The position numbers and the translations under genes were made by a program. Shown here piece by piece: positions 14,450-25,074 of a stretch of 25,197 bases of DNA. The DNA comes from a virus: positions 1 through 25,197 of the IMG/VR virus record IMGVR_UViG_3300022902_000071. One strand, 5' to 3'. Position 1 is the first letter of the stretch, and the number at the start of each line of letters is the position of its first letter. Under the pieces are notes generated by a model. The model had not been told where the DNA came from and made no database searches. It saw only the letters and a list, made by a program, of their open reading frames with translations.

Positions 14450-15532
14450 TTGAAACTATGTCTTGTTTGCCATAAGTATGGAGTACCACTTGATGATATG
14501 TGCTGTTATCCGTTGGGGTTTATGTATGTTTCAGCGGTGTTAAAAGCTCAGGGGCATGAGGTAAAAGTATTAAATTATAACCTCTATGACTATGATTTTG
14601 TCAAGGAAGTTAAAGATCAAGATGCTGTACTTTTTACTGGTTTTGAAGAATTTATGCTACCTATTGTAAGGGATGCTAAGATATGTAAAGATCTTGAAAT
14701 TTATACAATAATTGGTGGAGCACTTGCTACGTTTATCCCGGAGATTATAGGGAAATATGTAGATCAGGTATGTGTCGGTGAGTTCGAAGAAACGTCAAAT
14801 ATTGACCATATCCCTTGGCCCGATTACGAGGGCTTCGGCATTGACGAGTACCATAAAAGGCATAGTAAAAGATATATGTCTATTTTGACTTCTAGAGGTT
14901 GTCCGCATAACTGTACTTTTTGTTCACAGACCTGTGTGTTTAGAGTACGGAAACTGGATAAAGTGTTTGAAGAGATTCAGTACTATAAAGATAAGTATAA
15001 AATAGATACAATAGTGTTTAATGATAATACTTTTAATTTGTCGAAGAAAAGGTTTTTGAAAATTTGTAGCTGGTTAAAAGGTAAAGATCTGGAATGGGGA
15101 GCAAGTTTACGTTGCGATATCTTTGATGAAGAAATGGCAAAGGCTGCAAAGGACAGCAATTGTAGCTATTTTATTGTAGGAATTGAGTCTTTTAATCAAA
15201 AAAGATTAGATAAAATGTATAAGGGAATTACTGTAAAAGATATTTATAGAACTTTGGATTTACTGAAGAAATATAAAATTAACTACCATGGAAATATTCT
15301 TCTTGGCTTTGAGGATGAAAGTTATTTGGATATAGCAATGGAGGTTAATAAAATTCCAAAGGGTTATAATGTTTTTCCTACTTTGGTGCAGCCGTTTATA
15401 GGTACAGAGAATGGGAAGACTCGCTTACTGACTGATCATGAGGTGGAGTATTTAAATGAGAATTTTCTCGAATATATAATAGATCAAGGGCTGTATCAGT
15501 ACCCAGTTCTTGGAAAACTAAGGGTGGTGTAG
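14450..15532 (+). CDS. Radical SAM protein with degenerate B12-binding-like N-terminus
   Basis: This protein has 360 residues. The cluster motif C151-x3-C155-x2-C158 in TSRGCPHNCTFCSQ would hold a 4Fe-4S cluster that splits S-adenosylmethionine. VFNDNTFNLSKKRFLKI (189-205) and VGIESFNQKRLDKM (243-256) fit the B12-binding radical SAM class. The N-terminal ~120 residues have the Rossmann-like order (LGFMYVSAVLKAQGHEVKVLN, then IIGGALATFIPEI) but no DxHxxG cobalamin motif. The start is TTG at 14450, directly after the previous TAA, with AAGGTGG upstream; a later ATG would cut into the fold. The substrate is unknown. Between fibre genes and a GNAT gene, it may modify virion or host surface molecules. 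Confidence 0.88.
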   Translation: MKLCLVCHKYGVPLDDMCCYPLGFMYVSAVLKAQGHEVKVLNYNLYDYDFVKEVKDQDAVLFTGFEEFMLPIVRDAKICKDLEIYTIIGGALATFIPEIIGKYVDQVCVGEFEETSNIDHIPWPDYEGFGIDEYHKRHSKRYMSILTSRGCPHNCTFCSQTCVFRVRKLDKVFEEIQYYKDKYKIDTIVFNDNTFNLSKKRFLKICSWLKGKDLEWGASLRCDIFDEEMAKAAKDSNCSYFIVGIESFNQKRLDKMYKGITVKDIYRTLDLLKKYKINYHGNILLGFEDESYLDIAMEVNKIPKGYNVFPTLVQPFIGTENGKTRLLTDHEVEYLNENFLEYIIDQGLYQYPVLGKLRVV

Positions 15533-15533
15533 T

Positions 15534-15980
15534 ATGATAAAAGAATGGACTGCAAAAGATGGTAGAGAAAGCATGAGACATACTGAATTTATGAAAGCTT
15601 TTGAAGAAGCTAGTGGTATGGTTAAGGTTAATATACAATACGCTCATGCTAGGTATCAAGAGTTACTTGAATCTGGAATTTGTAGAGTATTTTACGCCGA
15701 GACAGAAGATAAAATTATCCAAGGTTCTATAGGTTTTATTATTTCTAATGATTTACATGACGGGAAGAAAATTGCGATTGAAACTTTCTGGTTTGTTGAC
15801 CCAACTTATAGAGGAATCGGTAAGAAATTATTTAATAAATTTGAAGCTGAAGCACATAAACTTGGTTGTGAAAAACTTGCTATGATTCATATGGTTGACT
15901 CGTATCCCGATACCCTTAAAGCTTTTTATGAAAAGAATGGGTATAAATTACTTGAATCACATTATATAAAGGAGATTTAG
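15534..15980 (+). CDS. GNAT-family N-acetyltransferase
   Basis: This 148-residue protein carries the acetyl-CoA motif VDPTYRGIGKKLF (88-100; the R-G-I-G-K loop binds pyrophosphate) and motif B FYEKNGYKLLE (131-141), the core of the GNAT fold. Length is normal for a single domain. It would transfer an acetyl group to an amine, but the acceptor cannot be told from sequence. It starts one base after the radical SAM stop and precedes the ejection genes by two bases, so it is cotranscribed with virion genes. Small GNAT genes are often found in podovirus tail clusters. Confidence 0.88.
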   Translation: MIKEWTAKDGRESMRHTEFMKAFEEASGMVKVNIQYAHARYQELLESGICRVFYAETEDKIIQGSIGFIISNDLHDGKKIAIETFWFVDPTYRGIGKKLFNKFEAEAHKLGCEKLAMIHMVDSYPDTLKAFYEKNGYKLLESHYIKEI

Positions 15981-15982
15981 TT

Positions 15983-16642
15983 ATGTCAGTAGTTTCTGGA
16001 ATAGTAGGAGCAAAGGCATCTAAAAGTGCAGCGAGGGCTCAGTCTGATGCGAGTGTACGAGCTGCTGAAATTCAATCGGCTGCTAGTGATAGAGCAATTG
16101 CAGCTCAAATGGATATGTTTGAGACTGGTAATGAATTGACTAAACCGTGGCGGGAAGCTGGTGAAAAAGCACTTGGTACGCTGCAGGAGAAAATTAGTGC
16201 TGGACCCGGGGAGTTTACTGAAGACCCAGGGTATCAGTTTAGACTTAGCGAAGGTCAAAAGGCTATAGACAGAGATGCATCTAGGCAGGGAAATGTGTTA
16301 AGTGGTAGTACAACAAAAGCTGCTACACAATTTGGACAAGACTATGCTACGCAGAGTTACGATAATTTTCTTAACAATTATTATAAAAGTTTAACCCCGT
16401 TGCAGAGTGTTGCTGGTGTTGGACAAACCAGTGCGGGACAAGCTGCTGGAGCTGCGGTGTCTACAGGTGCTGGGATTGCGGGAACTGAAAGAGCTACAGG
16501 TAATGCCATTGCAGGGTATACTATAAATGCTGGTGAAGCTCAAGCAGCCGGGGATATTAATACGGCTAATGTTATTTCAGGTGCTTCGAGTTCAGCAATG
16601 GATAATTACTTGGCTTGGAAATATTTAAGTAAGTCAGGATAA
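15983..16642 (+). CDS. Ejection (DNA transfer) protein, P22 gp7-like position and motif
   Basis: This 219-residue protein is rich in Ala, Gly, Ser and Gln. A helical N-terminus (KASKSAARAQSDASVRAAEI) leads to TKPWREAGEKALGTLQ and then FTEDPGYQFRLSEG (78-91) and RQGNVLSGSTT. The D-P-G-Y-x-F-R-L and S-G pattern is common in phage internal virion proteins annotated as gp7-like DNA transfer proteins. Such proteins sit inside the capsid and leave with the DNA to help build a path across the envelope. GGAG precedes ATG 15983. It is the first of three genes ordered as P22 7-20-16. Confidence 0.82.
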   Translation: MSVVSGIVGAKASKSAARAQSDASVRAAEIQSAASDRAIAAQMDMFETGNELTKPWREAGEKALGTLQEKISAGPGEFTEDPGYQFRLSEGQKAIDRDASRQGNVLSGSTTKAATQFGQDYATQSYDNFLNNYYKSLTPLQSVAGVGQTSAGQAAGAAVSTGAGIAGTERATGNAIAGYTINAGEAQAAGDINTANVISGASSSAMDNYLAWKYLSKSG

Positions 16643-16653
16643 GGAGAAATAAA

Positions 16654-17883
16654 ATGCCAATACCACAATTAAATATACCGAAGTCTAACGCTTTAAATAC
16701 TATTATGAAGTTTAAACAGCTTGGTGAGTATGATGAATCGAGTGCTGATAGAAAAGTTAAAGCTGGGCAGAGGAATACTATTTTTGAGTTGGAGAAACAA
16801 AAGCTAGAGCATGAGTTAAGTCCAGAAACACAGAATTTTATTAAGTTAAAGGAAGAGGCTGAATTAGCTAAAGTTAAAGCTGATGCGGTTGGTAAAACTC
16901 TTGATAATAAACAAAAATATGCGGAGGGTATTCAAAAAACTTTACTTGGTATACGAGCTAAACTTCGTACTGACGGCGGGGATCTTTTTAAATTTAAAGA
17001 TATGGTTTTAAAAAATGAGGTTTTAAAAGATCATGCTTATATGATACCCGATATTTCTCAATTTGGAAAGCCAGATTCTTCCAGTGAGACAGGTTATCGG
17101 CTTGACGAAACAGCAATGAATAATTTAAAGTCTGTACTTTTGAATCTATCTTTAGATGCTAAAACTATAGCGGAAGGTGGAACAGCTGGAAAACAAACAA
17201 CAGTTTATATGCCGAATGGAAGAGGTGGGTATAATGCTACTGAGGTTAAGTTGAATTTAAAAACTGGTGATACCTTTGATCCAGTTGCGTATGGCTTACC
17301 GGAGGGTACTGTAACGGCTTTACCAAAAGAAGTGAAAGCCCCGAAGACCAGGACTATTAAAAAGGGTACTGAAACAATTACTGAAGAGTTTGTTGGCGGT
17401 ACTTGGAAAGAAATTGGTAGAGGCCCTTCGTTTAAGCCTACAGAAGAAAAACCTTTGACAGAGGCTCAAATAGCTGCTGGGAAAAGATCTGATACAAAAA
17501 GACTTTCAGATATTAGTGAAAAGTTTTCTAAGATAGATAAAAATGGTTACTCGATTTTAACTGATAAAGATGCTGGTTCAACTCTTGCTGAAGAACATAA
17601 TAAACTTGCTGAAAAAGGTGGAAGTAAATTTAGATACGAGTGGAAAGAAAACGGCGTGGAAGTAGATAAAGATGGAAAGGTTGCTGCAGTACAAAGATTT
17701 TTTGGTGGTGATCCTGGAACAGAAACAATTCCTGGTTACGCTAAAGTAAAGGTTGGAGCTAAAGCAGATAAAGTAAAAACTGAGTTAAGTGATGCAGATC
17801 TTGCAGTTTATAGAGAAGCTTATCCAGGTAAATCAGATGAAGAAATTAGAGCGGCGTATAGTAAATTATCTCAAAAGGAGTAA
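16654..17883 (+). CDS. Second ejection-type virion protein (gp20 position)
   Basis: This 409-residue, Lys/Glu-rich, mostly helical protein has no enzymatic motif. The N-terminus MPIPQLNIPKSNALNTIM shares the short motif LNIPxSN with the giant protein encoded next (LNIPASN). Helices follow (FELEKQKLEHELSPETQNFIKLKEEAELAKVKADA), then a middle part with Gly turns and a C-terminal lysine-rich region ending SDEEIRAAYSKLSQKE. AAGGAG lies before ATG 16654, and its own last codons supply AGGAG for the giant gene. Position between the gp7-like and giant genes supports an ejection role. Sequence similarity to P22 gp20 is not evident to me. Confidence 0.68.
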   Translation: MPIPQLNIPKSNALNTIMKFKQLGEYDESSADRKVKAGQRNTIFELEKQKLEHELSPETQNFIKLKEEAELAKVKADAVGKTLDNKQKYAEGIQKTLLGIRAKLRTDGGDLFKFKDMVLKNEVLKDHAYMIPDISQFGKPDSSSETGYRLDETAMNNLKSVLLNLSLDAKTIAEGGTAGKQTTVYMPNGRGGYNATEVKLNLKTGDTFDPVAYGLPEGTVTALPKEVKAPKTRTIKKGTETITEEFVGGTWKEIGRGPSFKPTEEKPLTEAQIAAGKRSDTKRLSDISEKFSKIDKNGYSILTDKDAGSTLAEEHNKLAEKGGSKFRYEWKENGVEVDKDGKVAAVQRFFGGDPGTETIPGYAKVKVGAKADKVKTELSDADLAVYREAYPGKSDEEIRAAYSKLSQKE

Positions 17884-17886
17884 ATC

Positions 17887-20800
17887 ATGCCTACGTTAAA
17901 ACTTGGTAATTTACCTGAACTTGATTTTAGTGGTGAAAAGTTTGGAAGTCTTCCGGGGTTGGATTTTGGAGAAAAAGAAGAAAAAGAAGAAAAGGGACTT
18001 TTCTCTAAGTTTGGTGTACCAGAATTAAAATTTGGGGAACCTACTGAAAAGTTAAATATTCCTGCGTCTAATCAAATTCCTGACATTGAAGGTGAGATAG
18101 CTATACCAGTGGAAACACCGGGTCAAGTAGCTAAACAAAACGAAGTTACTCCTTTGATGAAAAGTATAGCTGATCCGTTTGGTGAGTTCGAAGACGAACT
18201 TGGTAAGATTAAGCAAAGAACTCCTGAAGAGCAGCTAATTGTACCACCTACTGGAGAAGAGCTTAACATAGAAAATAAAAGTTTAACACAGCAGAATGAA
18301 GAAATAACTGATATTGCTGAAAAGCTTCAGTTTAAAGATAATGATTTAAGGGGTATGAGATTAGCACTGGAAAAAGAAAAACCTGAAAATAAAGAACAAC
18401 TTGAAGGATACAACGCTAGAGTTGGTATGTATAAACAACTAGCTAATGATTTTACTACCAGTGTGAAAGAGTATAATAAAAGACTTAAAGTTATTGGTAA
18501 ACAGAGTGAAGATTTTAACGCTAAAGTAAAAGAACATAATGATTTTTTAGCTCTTCCAGGACCTGAAGAATCAGTAAGAAAGAAGCTTCAAGGAGTAAAA
18601 GAAGTTGTTGCTAATGTGGTTGCAGGTGCCGCTACGTTTATACCAGTTGGGTTAGCTAAATACGGTACTATTGGAGCTTATAGGCTTGCGGATTATTTAG
18701 GTTTATACCCCGAAAGTGAAAGAGTTTCAGATGAAGTTATAGAAGACTATAAAAAATTTATTGATGATAATGTTCCTAGTCTTGGCGGAGCTTTAACAGC
18801 TAAAACGCAACTTGGTCAGAAAGCTCTTGAGAAAATTGCAGTACCTTTTGAAAAGTTACATGATTTTGCTAAAAACAAAGCTAGATTTATAGATGGAGAA
18901 AAGTATCCGAATCTTAAAGAATTTGCTACGTTTGGTGTTGAAGTCTTTATGTTTGGTCTTGTTGGTAAAGGTGCTAGAGATGTTAAAGCAAAAATTAAAG
19001 AACATACGAAGATGTATGAGATTATAGTAGAAACTATTGAAAGAGATATTCCTCCAGAAATGATGCAAAGTGAGCTGATTCGAAAAGGGGTTGATAAAGG
19101 TATTGCAGCTGAAATAGCTATAGCTATGAAAGAAAGACCGGTTACTGCTATTATTAGTGAGAAGGTTAAGATACAAAAAGATAAACCAGTTATTGCTGCA
19201 CTTAAAGAAAGACTTGGTATGGAACCAGGGGAGCAGGTTCAAGTTGGTAAAAAGTTTGACAGAAAAGTAGATTTGAAAGTAAAAAAATTACCGGAACTTG
19301 ATTTTAAAAAACCAGTGAAGAAAGAAGTAAAGGCTGAAGTAAAAACTGAAGTAAAAGAAGTTAAATCTGATCTTTCAGGAGAAGCTTTTGATATAGCCGA
19401 GAAAGCAGCAGATGTTAAAAGAGCAAAAGTAGTACCAACTAAAGACCTTAAACCTGAACAAAAAACTTTTATAGAAAAGAGAGTTCAAAAGCTTGGTAGT
19501 CTTGAAAAAGTTAAAAAAGAGTATAAAAATGATGATCCTGTAAGTATCTTTGCCAGAGAAACTGCGGCGAAGGTTTTTGGTGGAGATGCTGATATTAAGG
19601 GATTAAAACCTACGATTAAAACCACCCCGTTGTCCACTGGGTTTGAGGTTCAGGGCAGGGGTATGGATAAAGCTGGTAAGCTTGTAGGGTTTAAACATAA
19701 ATGGCAAGCAACTAGAGATATGAAAGTTGCAGCTCGGAAGTCTGGTGCTGATCCGGTGGAGTATGATGTGGTTGAAGGTGACAGTGGATGGACTTTTCAG
19801 AGAAGAGAGATTAAGGTTGAAAAGAAAGTAAAAATTCCTAGTAAATTATACAGAGGTTATGCTAAAGGAAAAGAGTTTAGAGGTGAAGGAAGCCCTATTT
19901 TCTTTTCAGTAAATAAAAAATCAGCTACTGGTTTTGCTAATGCGTCTAAACATCTTGGAGAGCCGGTAGTTGGAGAATATTCTGTTGACATTAAGAACCC
20001 AAAAGTATATTCAGGTCCACTAGAGAAAGGTAGATCTACTTTTGCTACGGGTAGTAAACAAGTTAAAGAACTTAAAAAAGAGGGTTATGATAGTGCGGTT
20101 TATGTTGAAAATGGAGTAGTTAAAGAAGTAATAACTTTTAATAAAAACCAGGTAATTAAAAAAGAAAAAGTTTTTTCTTTACAAACTCTCGGAAAACCCG
20201 GTTATAAGAAAGGTAAAATAGTTCCTTGGAAGATGGAAAGCTTTGCTATAAAAGCTGCTGAAAAAGCCGGTGAAAATTGGGAGGTTAAAAAACTTGGTGA
20301 AAAATCTTTTGTAATTGAAAAGTCGGGAGAAAGGTCAAAAATTGACCAAAAGTCTGAGAATATAATTGACGAAGCGAAAAGAGTACCAACAGAGCCACCA
20401 TTGGATTATAAGCCAATAGGAATTTATAACAAGAATTCTGGTATGATTTTTAAGCCGTCAGTAGAAGAAATTGGAAGCTTTACAAATCCTCTAACTTTAC
20501 ATTTTGACGGGACACATAGTGAGTTAGTAAACGCAGTTGATTTTAAATTAGCTTTAGATGATACAGCTGGGATGAAAAAAGCTTTAATTGATTTAGGCTA
20601 TGATAGTATACAGTTTGTTAAGATTAAATACGGTAAAGTTTATTATAATGGGGATAAGATTAGTATTAAAAAGCCGGGATTAAAAGTTGAAAAGCCAAGT
20701 AGAACTGTAACAACAAAAGAGATAGAAGAAGTCCTACAGTTTGTCCCTGAAGTTCCTGAATCAGTGGTAGAAATTGATCCTAAAACACAAACCCCGTATC

Positions 20801-23800
20801 AGCAATTAAAGTTTCTTGGAAAAAAATACAAAATAGGTACTAGTCGAAGTTATTATATGTTAAACACCTGGGTTGATCGTTTAACAGAAGCTGGAGCGAC
20901 TACAGAAGAAATAGCTCGCGTAACAGCTTGGAAAGATACTGTTAATAGAAGTAGAGACAAATGGAAAAAATTAAATGATGATGCTTTAGCAAAATTTAAT
21001 AAAAAGAAAGAAAAGAAAGTAGAGAAAATAATAAAAAGTAGTAAAGATTTATATGGTACTGGTAAAATAGCAGCATCTATTAATCCAACATTACAAAAGA
21101 AACAGGCTTTAAAAGATATTCTTGGTGTTAATCCTACAAGAACTATTGTTGGAGAGCTTTTACAAAATTCGTTTGATGCTATGAGAGACTATACTACAAA
21201 ACCATTAGAAGTATATATAAATGATGGTATTTTAGCTATGACAGACTACGGTAAAGGTATGTCACCGCAAATTGCAACATCTGATCTTGTAACTTTATTT
21301 GAGCAAGGTACTAAAGGTGCTGAAGATATGGGCGGTTTTGGTCAAGCTAAACTTGCGTTTATGGGTTGGCCTGATTCGTTTGATATTGTTACTGTAGGTA
21401 TTGATCCTACAACAGGAAAGAAAGTACAAAGCAAAATCTGGGGTACCAGTGAAGATTATATGCTTAAGAATAATGTTAATAAAGAAATAAAAGAAGTAGC
21501 AGATAATAGTAAAACCGGAACTAGAATTATACTTAAAAAGGGGCAAAATTCAATAGGTGAATATGGTATTCAACCACATAGAGTTCTTGCTGAACTAGAA
21601 ACTTTTGGTGAAGGACTTAGAACTGGGCAAACAGTAAAAGTAATGAAAGATTTTAAGTCAGATAAAGAACTAAAAGAAACTGGATTAACCCCTGGTATAG
21701 ATGTTAAAGTAGTTGATGTTAAATCACCTAAATGGGAAAATATAGATAGTATTTTTGATGTAGAAAAGTTTTCTGTTGAAGGTAGTGATGTAGAGATTAA
21801 ATTTCCTAAAACCGAACCGTATGGTTGGTCTGGTGAAGAAATGAAAGACGTAAGAGTAAAAGTATTTAATAAAGGTCTTCTTTTACCTGACGTACCTAAA
21901 CGTAGTAGTTTAAACTTTTCTATTGCTAAAAAACCTAATTTTGAAATTGAAATAAATTTTATTAAAACGCCAGAAGCTTCTGATATAGCAAATTATCCTT
22001 TTGTTGTAAATAGAACCACATTAACAGCTAAAGTTGAGTCAAAAGTTAAAAGTGCGATACGTAAAACTTTATCTGAATTAAATGAAAAAATTGCTGATAC
22101 AACTAAAAAAGATATACAAAGACTTTTTAATTCAGCACCAAAAATAAGTGATACAAAATTTATTATTCCTATTACAGGATCTACTGTAGAAGCTGTAAAA
22201 GTGTTAAAGCAGTATCCAAAGATGTTTAGTGAACTTGGTGAAATTACTAAATTACATAGCGATACAATTGGTAAACAGACTAACGTACCCCAACAAAATG
22301 TAGCAATTACAACTTACGCAGGTGTACACGGTTTTAGACCAAAAAGTGGTATACTTAAAGAGGATTATGTAGTGGTAAATCCGTTTACTTATTTAGATAC
22401 GTTTTTAAAAGATGTAGATGGATTACCTTACGGTACAAAAACTATAAATGAATTAACACCGACACAAATTAAAGCAAAAGATAAAGAATTAGAAAGTGCA
22501 GCTATTGGGTTAATTAGTACACTTACACATGAATACGCTCACACAAATGCAAATGGACATTATTTATCTTTTGTTCAAGAGTTTCATAGAATAGAAAGAG
22601 ATTTAGGATTTTCAAAACATAAAATGGAGGCACAAGCTTATGAGTTCTTTAAAAAATACGAATCAGATATCAGACACGCTACAAAAGCTCTCGAAGATAT
22701 ACAAAAAGCAGGGACGATCTCTCCGATCTTCTCTGAATATGTCCCTGAACAACGAAGGGTTGGACAATTCTCCGACGAGAAAAAATCTACAACAGATGTT
22801 GAAAGACATGGACAAGTACGGGATAGAGGTGGAGTAAAACTTACCTCCGGGTTTGATCCAGTTGAAGCTGTAAAAGCAATTCGGGACCTGGGAAAAGATA
22901 TAAAAGCAGCAATTCCACACCTGGAAACTTTAGGAAAACATTATTATACAGGTGAAAAACAGCGGTACTTCGATTGGCAGAAAAAGATGAAAGGAGCTCT
23001 AGGGGATCTGTGGACTAAGGTTAAGAAGTACATAGGTGAAGTTTGGAAAGGGTTAAAAAGACCCTTAAAAAATGAAAAGGGGGCTGTTACAATCCCGGTT
23101 AGAGAAATAAAAGCAGCTACAAAAAGAAACATTAAAAGAACTAAAAAATTACTAGATGAAAAACTTGGAGCACTCACTACCAGGCTTGAAAAGATAAGTC
23201 CAAGTATAAAGAATAAAATAATCGAATTTGAGTTAGACACCGGGGTTAAGGTAGAAAAAATAGCTAAAGATGTAATGCTTCCGTTTATAGAAAAAACTAC
23301 TAAAATGTCTAAGAAAGATTATGATACTTTTGATCTTGCGAGGAAAGAGCGGAACAAAAAAGAAATAGATGATTTGGTAGAGAAGTACGGGATGGAAGAA
23401 GAGTATAAAAAAGTTCGGGGTATGCTTGATGCTATTGGTAACGAAGCTAGAGCAGTTGGATATAAGTTTAATTATTTAAAAGATTACCATCCTCGGCAGA
23501 TTATAGATTTTGAAGGTCTTATGGATTATTTGTATGAGACTGGTAATAGGTCTACGATAGAATTTTTTATTGAAGCTAAAGAGAAAAAACTTGGTAGAAA
23601 GCTAACTAATGAGGAAGAAATTAAACTTGTAAATTCGTTGTTTAGAGGTTATGCTGATGAAAGAATTACGCTTTCTAAACCGGGACAACTAAAGCTTAGA
23701 AAGTTAAAGAAAATTGGCCCTGAAATAATGGAGTTTTACGGGGATTCTAACAGTGCTCTTTTACGCTATGTCAATGATATAGTTTTAGCAGTAGAAGCTA

Positions 23801-25074
23801 AAAAACTTTTTGGAGACTATAAAATAGAGGGCCTGGATTTAAACGAAACTATCGGGGCGTATATTTTAAGGGTGTCTAAAGAGAAGAGACTTACCCCGAG
23901 CCAGGAACTTGAACTAAGGTCAATGCTTCATGCTAGATTTAACCCCGTTGGAACTAGTGGAATTGTTACCACCTTTAAAAACGTAGCTGTGATAGATGTT
24001 ATGGGCTCCCCGGCGTCAGCACTTCGGCAAGTCGGTGATATTGGTTGGTCTATGATAGAGAACGGGACTTTTGCTTCAAGTAAAGCTTTTGGTAAGGCAA
24101 TGGTCGGTAACTTTATTTCGCAAAAATACGGCTCGGAATTTACAAAAGAAGATCTTGGGATTAGTAAAATTGGGGCGGAATTTAGTGATAAAACTTTGTC
24201 TGCAAAAGCTGTAGATAGTGTATTTAGAGTTATTTGGCTGACGAAAATAGATGCTATTGGGAAAGAGGTGTTAATAAATGCTGCGTATGATATAGCAGTT
24301 AGAAAGGCAAAGAGTAAAGATATTAAGGTTAGAGATGCTTTTATAAATAAACTCATACCTATATTTGAAAATCGAACAGATGCTTTAATGGAAGATTTTA
24401 GAAGTGGGGTAAAATCAAGAGATGTTAAACTTTATCTACTAAGAAAATTATCAGAATATCAACCTGCTACGCTTTCTGAACTCCCGCAGGGGTTTATAGA
24501 AGGTGGAAATGCTAGAATAGCTTATATGCTTAAATCTTTTGACTTGAAAAAGTTTGATGTATATAGAAGAAAGGTTTTTCAGCAAATAGCCAAGCCTGGT
24601 ACCAGAATACAAGGTATTAAAAACCTGTTTAAAATAGCATTCTTTTTAACCTTAATGGAAGCTACAGGGGATACTTTAATAGACTTGTTTCTTGGTAAAC
24701 CTATTAATATATCAGACACTGTTGTGGGTAGAATTTCGGGGCTGGCTATATCACGATATACTACGAGTAAGATTAGAAGAGAAGGTCCCGGGGCACTGCT
24801 TGAACAAATTCTTCCTCCTACACAGTTTATAAATTCTATATTCAGGGATGTGGTTTCAGCGGGTGACGGGAAGGGTCTTGAATTTACTAAGTCTATCCCG
24901 TTGGTAGGAAAGTTCTATTATTACCGTTGGGGTAAGGGACTTGAAAAAGTTGAAAAAGATAGAGAGAAGAATCAGAGTAAGAATGCTATTAGCAGAATTA
25001 GAAAGATTCAAAAACCTAAGGGTAAAAATGCTATTAGAAAAATTCAAAGAAAGAAAAGAAAAATTTCAAGATAA
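17887..25074 (+). CDS. Giant polyvalent ejection-type protein: ART, GHKL ATPase, metallopeptidase, C-terminal LPD region
   Basis: A 2395-residue protein. Residues 1-60 repeat L-P-x-L-[DK]-F; a hydrophobic stretch lies at 240-260. An ADP-ribosyltransferase-like domain (650-758) has LYRGY (R656), FFS (672-674) and GYD (733-735). A weaker copy (838-928) keeps NPL and LGYDS. A GHKL ATPase (about 1065-1240) has E1090...N1094...D1097, D1120-x-G-x-G, GGFGQ (1149-1153) and GTR (1211-1213). Its presumed transducer includes YPFVVNR (1370). A zinc site HEYAH (1548-1552) with H1558 has metzincin-like spacing. The C-terminal third, with YQPATLSELP (2191-2200), resembles the associated domain at the end of giant phage polyvalent proteins (LPD38 type, from memory). 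Genes upstream suggest it is packaged and ejected, as P22 gp16 is. AGGAG at 17876-17880 sets the start. Confidence 0.85.
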   Translation: MPTLKLGNLPELDFSGEKFGSLPGLDFGEKEEKEEKGLFSKFGVPELKFGEPTEKLNIPASNQIPDIEGEIAIPVETPGQVAKQNEVTPLMKSIADPFGEFEDELGKIKQRTPEEQLIVPPTGEELNIENKSLTQQNEEITDIAEKLQFKDNDLRGMRLALEKEKPENKEQLEGYNARVGMYKQLANDFTTSVKEYNKRLKVIGKQSEDFNAKVKEHNDFLALPGPEESVRKKLQGVKEVVANVVAGAATFIPVGLAKYGTIGAYRLADYLGLYPESERVSDEVIEDYKKFIDDNVPSLGGALTAKTQLGQKALEKIAVPFEKLHDFAKNKARFIDGEKYPNLKEFATFGVEVFMFGLVGKGARDVKAKIKEHTKMYEIIVETIERDIPPEMMQSELIRKGVDKGIAAEIAIAMKERPVTAIISEKVKIQKDKPVIAALKERLGMEPGEQVQVGKKFDRKVDLKVKKLPELDFKKPVKKEVKAEVKTEVKEVKSDLSGEAFDIAEKAADVKRAKVVPTKDLKPEQKTFIEKRVQKLGSLEKVKKEYKNDDPVSIFARETAAKVFGGDADIKGLKPTIKTTPLSTGFEVQGRGMDKAGKLVGFKHKWQATRDMKVAARKSGADPVEYDVVEGDSGWTFQRREIKVEKKVKIPSKLYRGYAKGKEFRGEGSPIFFSVNKKSATGFANASKHLGEPVVGEYSVDIKNPKVYSGPLEKGRSTFATGSKQVKELKKEGYDSAVYVENGVVKEVITFNKNQVIKKEKVFSLQTLGKPGYKKGKIVPWKMESFAIKAAEKAGENWEVKKLGEKSFVIEKSGERSKIDQKSENIIDEAKRVPTEPPLDYKPIGIYNKNSGMIFKPSVEEIGSFTNPLTLHFDGTHSELVNAVDFKLALDDTAGMKKALIDLGYDSIQFVKIKYGKVYYNGDKISIKKPGLKVEKPSRTVTTKEIEEVLQFVPEVPESVVEIDPKTQTPYQQLKFLGKKYKIGTSRSYYMLNTWVDRLTEAGATTEEIARVTAWKDTVNRSRDKWKKLNDDALAKFNKKKEKKVEKIIKSSKDLYGTGKIAASINPTLQKKQALKDILGVNPTRTIVGELLQNSFDAMRDYTTKPLEVYINDGILAMTDYGKGMSPQIATSDLVTLFEQGTKGAEDMGGFGQAKLAFMGWPDSFDIVTVGIDPTTGKKVQSKIWGTSEDYMLKNNVNKEIKEVADNSKTGTRIILKKGQNSIGEYGIQPHRVLAELETFGEGLRTGQTVKVMKDFKSDKELKETGLTPGIDVKVVDVKSPKWENIDSIFDVEKFSVEGSDVEIKFPKTEPYGWSGEEMKDVRVKVFNKGLLLPDVPKRSSLNFSIAKKPNFEIEINFIKTPEASDIANYPFVVNRTTLTAKVESKVKSAIRKTLSELNEKIADTTKKDIQRLFNSAPKISDTKFIIPITGSTVEAVKVLKQYPKMFSELGEITKLHSDTIGKQTNVPQQNVAITTYAGVHGFRPKSGILKEDYVVVNPFTYLDTFLKDVDGLPYGTKTINELTPTQIKAKDKELESAAIGLISTLTHEYAHTNANGHYLSFVQEFHRIERDLGFSKHKMEAQAYEFFKKYESDIRHATKALEDIQKAGTISPIFSEYVPEQRRVGQFSDEKKSTTDVERHGQVRDRGGVKLTSGFDPVEAVKAIRDLGKDIKAAIPHLETLGKHYYTGEKQRYFDWQKKMKGALGDLWTKVKKYIGEVWKGLKRPLKNEKGAVTIPVREIKAATKRNIKRTKKLLDEKLGALTTRLEKISPSIKNKIIEFELDTGVKVEKIAKDVMLPFIEKTTKMSKKDYDTFDLARKERNKKEIDDLVEKYGMEEEYKKVRGMLDAIGNEARAVGYKFNYLKDYHPRQIIDFEGLMDYLYETGNRSTIEFFIEAKEKKLGRKLTNEEEIKLVNSLFRGYADERITLSKPGQLKLRKLKKIGPEIMEFYGDSNSALLRYVNDIVLAVEAKKLFGDYKIEGLDLNETIGAYILRVSKEKRLTPSQELELRSMLHARFNPVGTSGIVTTFKNVAVIDVMGSPASALRQVGDIGWSMIENGTFASSKAFGKAMVGNFISQKYGSEFTKEDLGISKIGAEFSDKTLSAKAVDSVFRVIWLTKIDAIGKEVLINAAYDIAVRKAKSKDIKVRDAFINKLIPIFENRTDALMEDFRSGVKSRDVKLYLLRKLSEYQPATLSELPQGFIEGGNARIAYMLKSFDLKKFDVYRRKVFQQIAKPGTRIQGIKNLFKIAFFLTLMEATGDTLIDLFLGKPINISDTVVGRISGLAISRYTTSKIRREGPGALLEQILPPTQFINSIFRDVVSAGDGKGLEFTKSIPLVGKFYYYRWGKGLEKVEKDREKNQSKNAISRIRKIQKPKGKNAIRKIQRKKRKISR
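20333..20347. repeat. Intragenic palindrome GGTCAA-AAA-TTGACC
   Basis: This inverted repeat, with six-base arms and a three-base centre, lies in the linker between the two ADP-ribosyltransferase-like segments of the giant gene. It shares its arms with the copies at 5315-5329 and 25082-25096. In a coding sequence it may be chance or a binding site. Confidence 0.35.

Follow-up and report, generated by a model that had tools for sequence, protein, structure and literature searches.

The locus and its giant open reading frame

The window, meaning the whole stretch of DNA that was analysed, is an entire IMG/VR virus record of 25,197 bases. It carries a giant open reading frame (ORF) of 2395 aa at positions 17887-25074; this ORF, its parts and the two ejection-type genes before it lie on the + strand. 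Upstream are TerL, portal, scaffold, coat and head closure genes. Two ORFs before the giant one is a gene for a gp7-like DNA ejection protein of 219 aa (15983-16642; phrog_598, E=4.1e-29), and between them lies a gene for a 409-aa protein (16654-17883) which has no family match in profile searches and which is placed in the slot of the second ejection protein (gp15/gp20) by position and size only. The giant ORF is the third and largest gene of this series. Since T7- and P22-like ejection operons are ordered small, middle and large ejection gene (PMC8954989), the order found in the window (219 aa, 409 aa, giant) supports an ejection-type setting. The window has three near-identical copies (L003, L004 and L005) and one distant relative, L006, in which the gene order is the same, phrog_598 included. 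Near most other members of the family described below phrog_598 is absent, and neither phrog_598 nor phrog_156 is a general companion of the module that defines the family. Podoviral gp16 (P22, T7) resembles the giant protein in that its gene comes third, behind a gp7-like and a mid-sized gene, and is the largest of them, and in its basic C-terminus, but gp16-like proteins in PMC8954989 have 609-1337 aa and there is no sequence match. Judging from sequence and gene order, the giant protein is probably injected along with the viral DNA. Two further genes sit between the structural and the ejection genes. One encodes a radical SAM-like protein (14450-15532; the GCPHNCTFC motif was read from the sequence and the PHROG match is only at E=0.077), the other an acetyltransferase (15534-15980; phrog_1249, E=3.2e-14).

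Like the polyvalent proteins of Iyer et al. 2017 (PMC5512222), the product of the giant ORF is a large multidomain protein with a zincin and an ART-like domain. The ART-PolyVal-like segment spans residues 666-756 (19882-20154; PF18760, E=9.6e-4, under the Pfam cut-off). A relative, L035, matches PF18760 at E=4.7e-7, just under the cut-off, and LPD39 is above the Pfam cut-off in two others (L033 and L052); both findings connect the family with polyvalent proteins. A preliminary description of this DNA had spoken of an ejection-type, polyvalent protein, and the operon order, phrog_598 and the ART-like and LPD39 domains support this (PMC8954989, PMC5512222). A possible second ART-like stretch (LGYDSIQF), judged by eye only, comes after it at residues 830-940 (20374-20706).

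The C-terminal region (22831-25038) is 67% identical to that of L006, whose ORF has 2634 aa; over the C-terminal 744 columns the identity is 65%. It contains a hydrophobic segment at residues 2250-2268. The tail is very basic (24952-25071), with 18 K/R among the last 40 residues. Basic C-terminal residues of T7 gp16 have been reported to be needed for infectivity (PMC8954989).

The ATPase, middle and peptidase domains

Residues 1058-1225 (21058-21561) are assigned to an Hsp90-like GHKL ATPase N-domain by motifs, alignment and profiles. Its motifs are ELLQNSFDA (1090-1098), DYGKG (1120-1124), GGFGQ (1149-1153, or GGFGQAK when read on from 1149) and GTR (1211-1213). All motifs of the ATPase and of the zincin quoted in the preliminary description were found at exactly the residues it gave in ORF 17887-25074. 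The GTR aligns with a GT of L006 in pairwise comparison but does not align in the multiple alignment.

Taken by itself, the window protein matches Pfam only below threshold (HATPase_c_3, E=3.5e-4, and the ART-PolyVal match already given, both of them fragments) and has no match for the peptidase, including WLM and YgjP-like; hence its relatives were needed for the claim. In the PDB, too, a profile search with this single protein gave no matches. Among the relatives, Pfam HATPase models match 28 of 29 aligned members (best, HATPase_c_3 at 1.8e-11), and a family profile of the ATPase and middle part finds TRAP1, HtpG, Grp94 and Hsp90 in the PDB with E=4e-16, over the N-domain. With E-x3-N-x2-D, DxGxG and GGxGxAK all present, and Hsp90 found by Foldseek as well, the GHKL identification holds.

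The ATPase is followed by a middle, transducer-like domain (21562-22110) with invariant Y1370, P1371 and R1376, which is Hsp90-like by whole-module fold only. Alone it has no sequence match in profile searches, to Hsp90 or otherwise, and thus gives no support for homology to Hsp90 on its own. We take its YPFxxNR loop, which contains R1376, to resemble the arginine loop found in the middle domain of Hsp90. An AlphaFold2 model of the window module (pLDDT 65.7) has Hsp90 chains as its best PDB matches in Foldseek (E=1.6e-9, at a low TM of ~0.3). Among predicted viral structures (BFVD) the best match is UniProt A0A516L4L2 (entry A0A516L4L2_1; E=1.1e-15, TMq 0.58), compared by fold alone, and many rIIA proteins come after it. 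The module therefore shares with Hsp90, HtpG and TRAP1 an N-domain profile and a whole-module fold match; it differs from them in having a zincin in place of the C-terminal dimerisation domain of Hsp90, and a middle domain without sequence match.

The zincin occupies residues 1436-1620 (22192-22746) and is predicted to consist of a helix, three strands, an active-site helix and a second long helix. In the model (pLDDT 78.7, pTM 0.76) HExxH lies in the first of the two C-terminal helices, and this order agrees with the zincin topology described in PMC5512222. The zinc-binding motif is HEYAHTNANGH (22528-22560), with H1548, E1549, H1552 and H1558. A profile of the peptidase part finds proabylysin first (0.0015) and then Wss1 (0.013) in the PDB. 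Weak Pfam matches, counted at E up to 0.1, are to YgjP-like in 22 of 29 members and to WLM in 11 of 29 (best 2e-4); the WLM scores of L017 and L035 are below the curated cut-off. No PDB fold is matched significantly by the zincin model. The top two by probability are both Wss1, over 31-33 residues, with a local fit of 31 residues at 0.6 angstrom. Profile searches thus give the Hsp90 group for one end of the module and zincin metallopeptidases for the other, which supports the GHKL ATPase and the zincin of the preliminary description. Structure prediction bears out the zincin topology and the local likeness to Wss1, which speak indirectly for H1548, H1552 and H1558 lying around one site, and supports an Hsp90 fold of the whole module at the low TM already mentioned.

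The same description placed the third His at metzincin spacing, and here it needs correcting. The Gly expected at +7 is missing (A1555) and Gly is not conserved there in the alignment, so membership of the metzincins was rejected. From its sequence, the peptidase would be better explained as nearest to minigluzincins, Wss1/WLM and YgjP, whose pattern HExxHxxxxxHxxxF it shares together with the profile matches and the local Wss1 fold match; unlike them it is fused to a GHKL ATPase, and the matches to them are weak. In two loci the motif reads HEINHTTESGE (L034) and HEINHTTVSGE (L069), with Glu in place of the third His at +10, and the sequences suggest that this Glu may be an alternative zinc ligand.

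Distribution and conservation of the fused unit

Relatives were sought in 2.9 million viral contigs with a degenerate DNA pattern for the N-box E-L-x-Q-N-S-x-D-A-[IM]. This yielded 54 viral loci, nearly all within giant ORFs. In most of them a DxGxG follows at a distance of about 38 residues, and in most of those with sufficient length HExxH follows after 430-720 residues. Once the kin of the window (L031 and L050) had been left out, the fusion could be assessed in 36 ORFs with at least 650 residues past the N-box. HExxH lies downstream in frame in 35 of the 36 against 0.26 expected from shuffling, the exception being L063, and the third His at +10 (HExxHx5H) is found in 31 of the 36 against 0.008 expected. 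The ATPase and the peptidase in one chain, as first noticed in the window, is a combination far above chance.

An alignment was made of 29 sequences, which had been selected by their N-box and HExxH; a few members without the His at +10 were left out. Its invariant positions are E1090, Q1093, N1094, S1095, D1097, A1098, D1120, G1124, G1149, G1152 and A1154 in the ATPase block, G1330, Y1370, P1371 and R1376 in the middle block, and G1482, H1548, E1549, H1552 and H1558 in the peptidase block. D1120, the GGxG and R1376 were not selection criteria, and in a wider set position 1558 is His in 36 of 40. These residues, together with the Pfam and PDB profile matches and the predicted topology, uphold the assignment to zincins. 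L006 is only 28% identical to the window over 696 columns spanning the ATPase, middle part and peptidase, and it keeps E1090/N1094/D1097, DxGxG, GGxG-AK, GT and H1548/E1549/H1552/H1558. The near-identical copies differ in the module by 6 nonsynonymous and 0 synonymous changes, which are too few to show purifying selection. Two loci left out of the alignment (L037 and L047, the latter with an ORF of 4737 aa) have the GHKL domain, a longer spacer of 708-715 aa, and an Asp after HExxH (GD at +9/+10).

Sixteen representative proteins were compared in pairs. They match within the module in 104 of 120 pairs and also outside it in 16; the representatives were chosen by the N-box, so that the count outside the module is the informative one. 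It follows that the module is constant and the rest of the protein mostly variable.

No phage with the fused module was found by tblastn in 50,697 phage records with the modules of the window, L006, L018 and L041 as queries, and plasmids gave a weak ATPase match only. Stricter peptide-pattern scans recovered near kin and L006 only. A scan of GTDB genomes with the module alignment, which was limited by its pattern, found no relative; a narrower N-box pattern, limited in the same way, gave three matches, of which two lack a zincin and the third lies in an open frame of 112 residues, too short to judge. PMC5512222, where zincins are the commonest domain of polyvalent proteins and a role in processing is proposed for them, says nothing of GHKL, Hsp90 or HATPase in its main text. 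No description of a GHKL-zincin fusion was found in the literature searched, most subscription journals lying outside that search. The window protein departs from polyvalent proteins as described there: its zincin is fused to an Hsp90-like ATPase, and the two form a constant unit.

Possible functions of the fused unit

We regard it as nearly certain that the product of this ORF is a polyvalent protein of the ejection type, with a constant core made up of an Hsp90-like GHKL ATPase, a middle domain and a Wss1/YgjP-like peptidase. What this core does is more speculative. Our tentative preference, which we would put somewhat short of an even chance, is an ATP-gated protease with self-processing as its main task. 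The giant protein would be packaged in the capsid. Hardly any ATP, if any, is to be expected there, and the module would stay silent. After ejection into the cytoplasm, binding of ATP could close the GHKL/middle part, and closure would switch on the attached peptidase. The peptidase might then chiefly cut the ejected giant polypeptide itself and set free the effector parts that vary, ART-like ones among them; it may cut neighbouring proteins as well. Self-processing by polyvalent zincins has been proposed before (PMC5512222).

The preliminary description had suggested that the protein is an injected effector, which captures and cuts host defence or housekeeping proteins by ATP-driven clamp closure. 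This we consider rather unlikely, even though zincins do act as effectors in conflict systems (PMC5512222), ART-type domains are present in the same chain, and GHKL proteins of the rIIA kind have been linked to counter-defence (PMC7824862). The module stays the same across proteins whose other parts vary. A common role in processing or delivery would account for this better than a host target that changes. Because the unit is constant amid variable neighbours, we favour processing, and self-processing of the giant polypeptide would be at least as likely as an attack on host proteins.

It is also conceivable, with a lower probability, that the two domains are inherited together and work separately, the ATPase as a chaperone that refolds the giant protein once it is past the portal, and the zincin as a processing enzyme at virion assembly with no control by ATP. 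Ejection proteins must unfold and refold (PMC8954989), and DdrB of phage P1 is processed before packaging (PMC5512222). Nevertheless, very different proteins keep the middle domain and the zincin side by side as one conserved block, which argues for coupling. Least probable by far is a counter-defence protein of the rIIA type with a peptidase-like tail devoid of proteolysis: among annotated phage proteins the nearest relative of the ATPase is an rIIA-like one, many BFVD fold matches are rIIA, and rIIA too has a GHKL N-domain and a variable C-terminal part, but H, E, H and H are conserved here, V13 rIIA has no HExxH, no rIIB partner was matched among the window ORFs scanned, and the unit is embedded in a 2395-aa ejection-type protein.

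Returning to the ATP-gated protease, the recurrence of the fused unit in dozens of otherwise mostly unrelated giant proteins from uncultured phages suggests an unrecognised ATP-controlled protease acting at the start of infection. A bolder and more doubtful generalization is that these proteins make up a class of ATP-gated proteases, delivered by virions, that is widespread and has gone undescribed, and in which an Hsp90-like clamp is joined to a Wss1-like peptidase and ATP of the host cytoplasm would be the signal that delivery is complete. If correct, phages control a protease delivered together with their DNA by means of a chaperone-like ATPase, and injected enzymes are held inactive before their arrival in the cytoplasm. 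It would also explain how giant polyvalent proteins mature. The role of zincins in polyvalent proteins becomes testable with one construct of 563 residues.

A few features of the giant proteins lie outside the module. At residues 9-49 (17911-18033) the window protein has a short repeated peptide, LPELDF / LPGLDF / VPELKF; with a fourth at residue 468, four copies are found against 0.0005 expected per protein from shuffling. Short peptide repeats are also seen at the N-termini in L017, L019, L026, L030, L049, L052, L055 and L056. These peptides are repeated two to four times and are specific to lineages (LPELDF, NPYLSLPD, KFVPL, TATNPxTG, FSFEEA, WWENDP and WEVVSEAP); possibly they are virion-docking or packaging tags. 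In further support of the ejection-type setting, the gene after the giant ORF in one relative, L024, encodes a pectate-lyase-like fold with a weak match to the N-domain of the T7 tail fibre.
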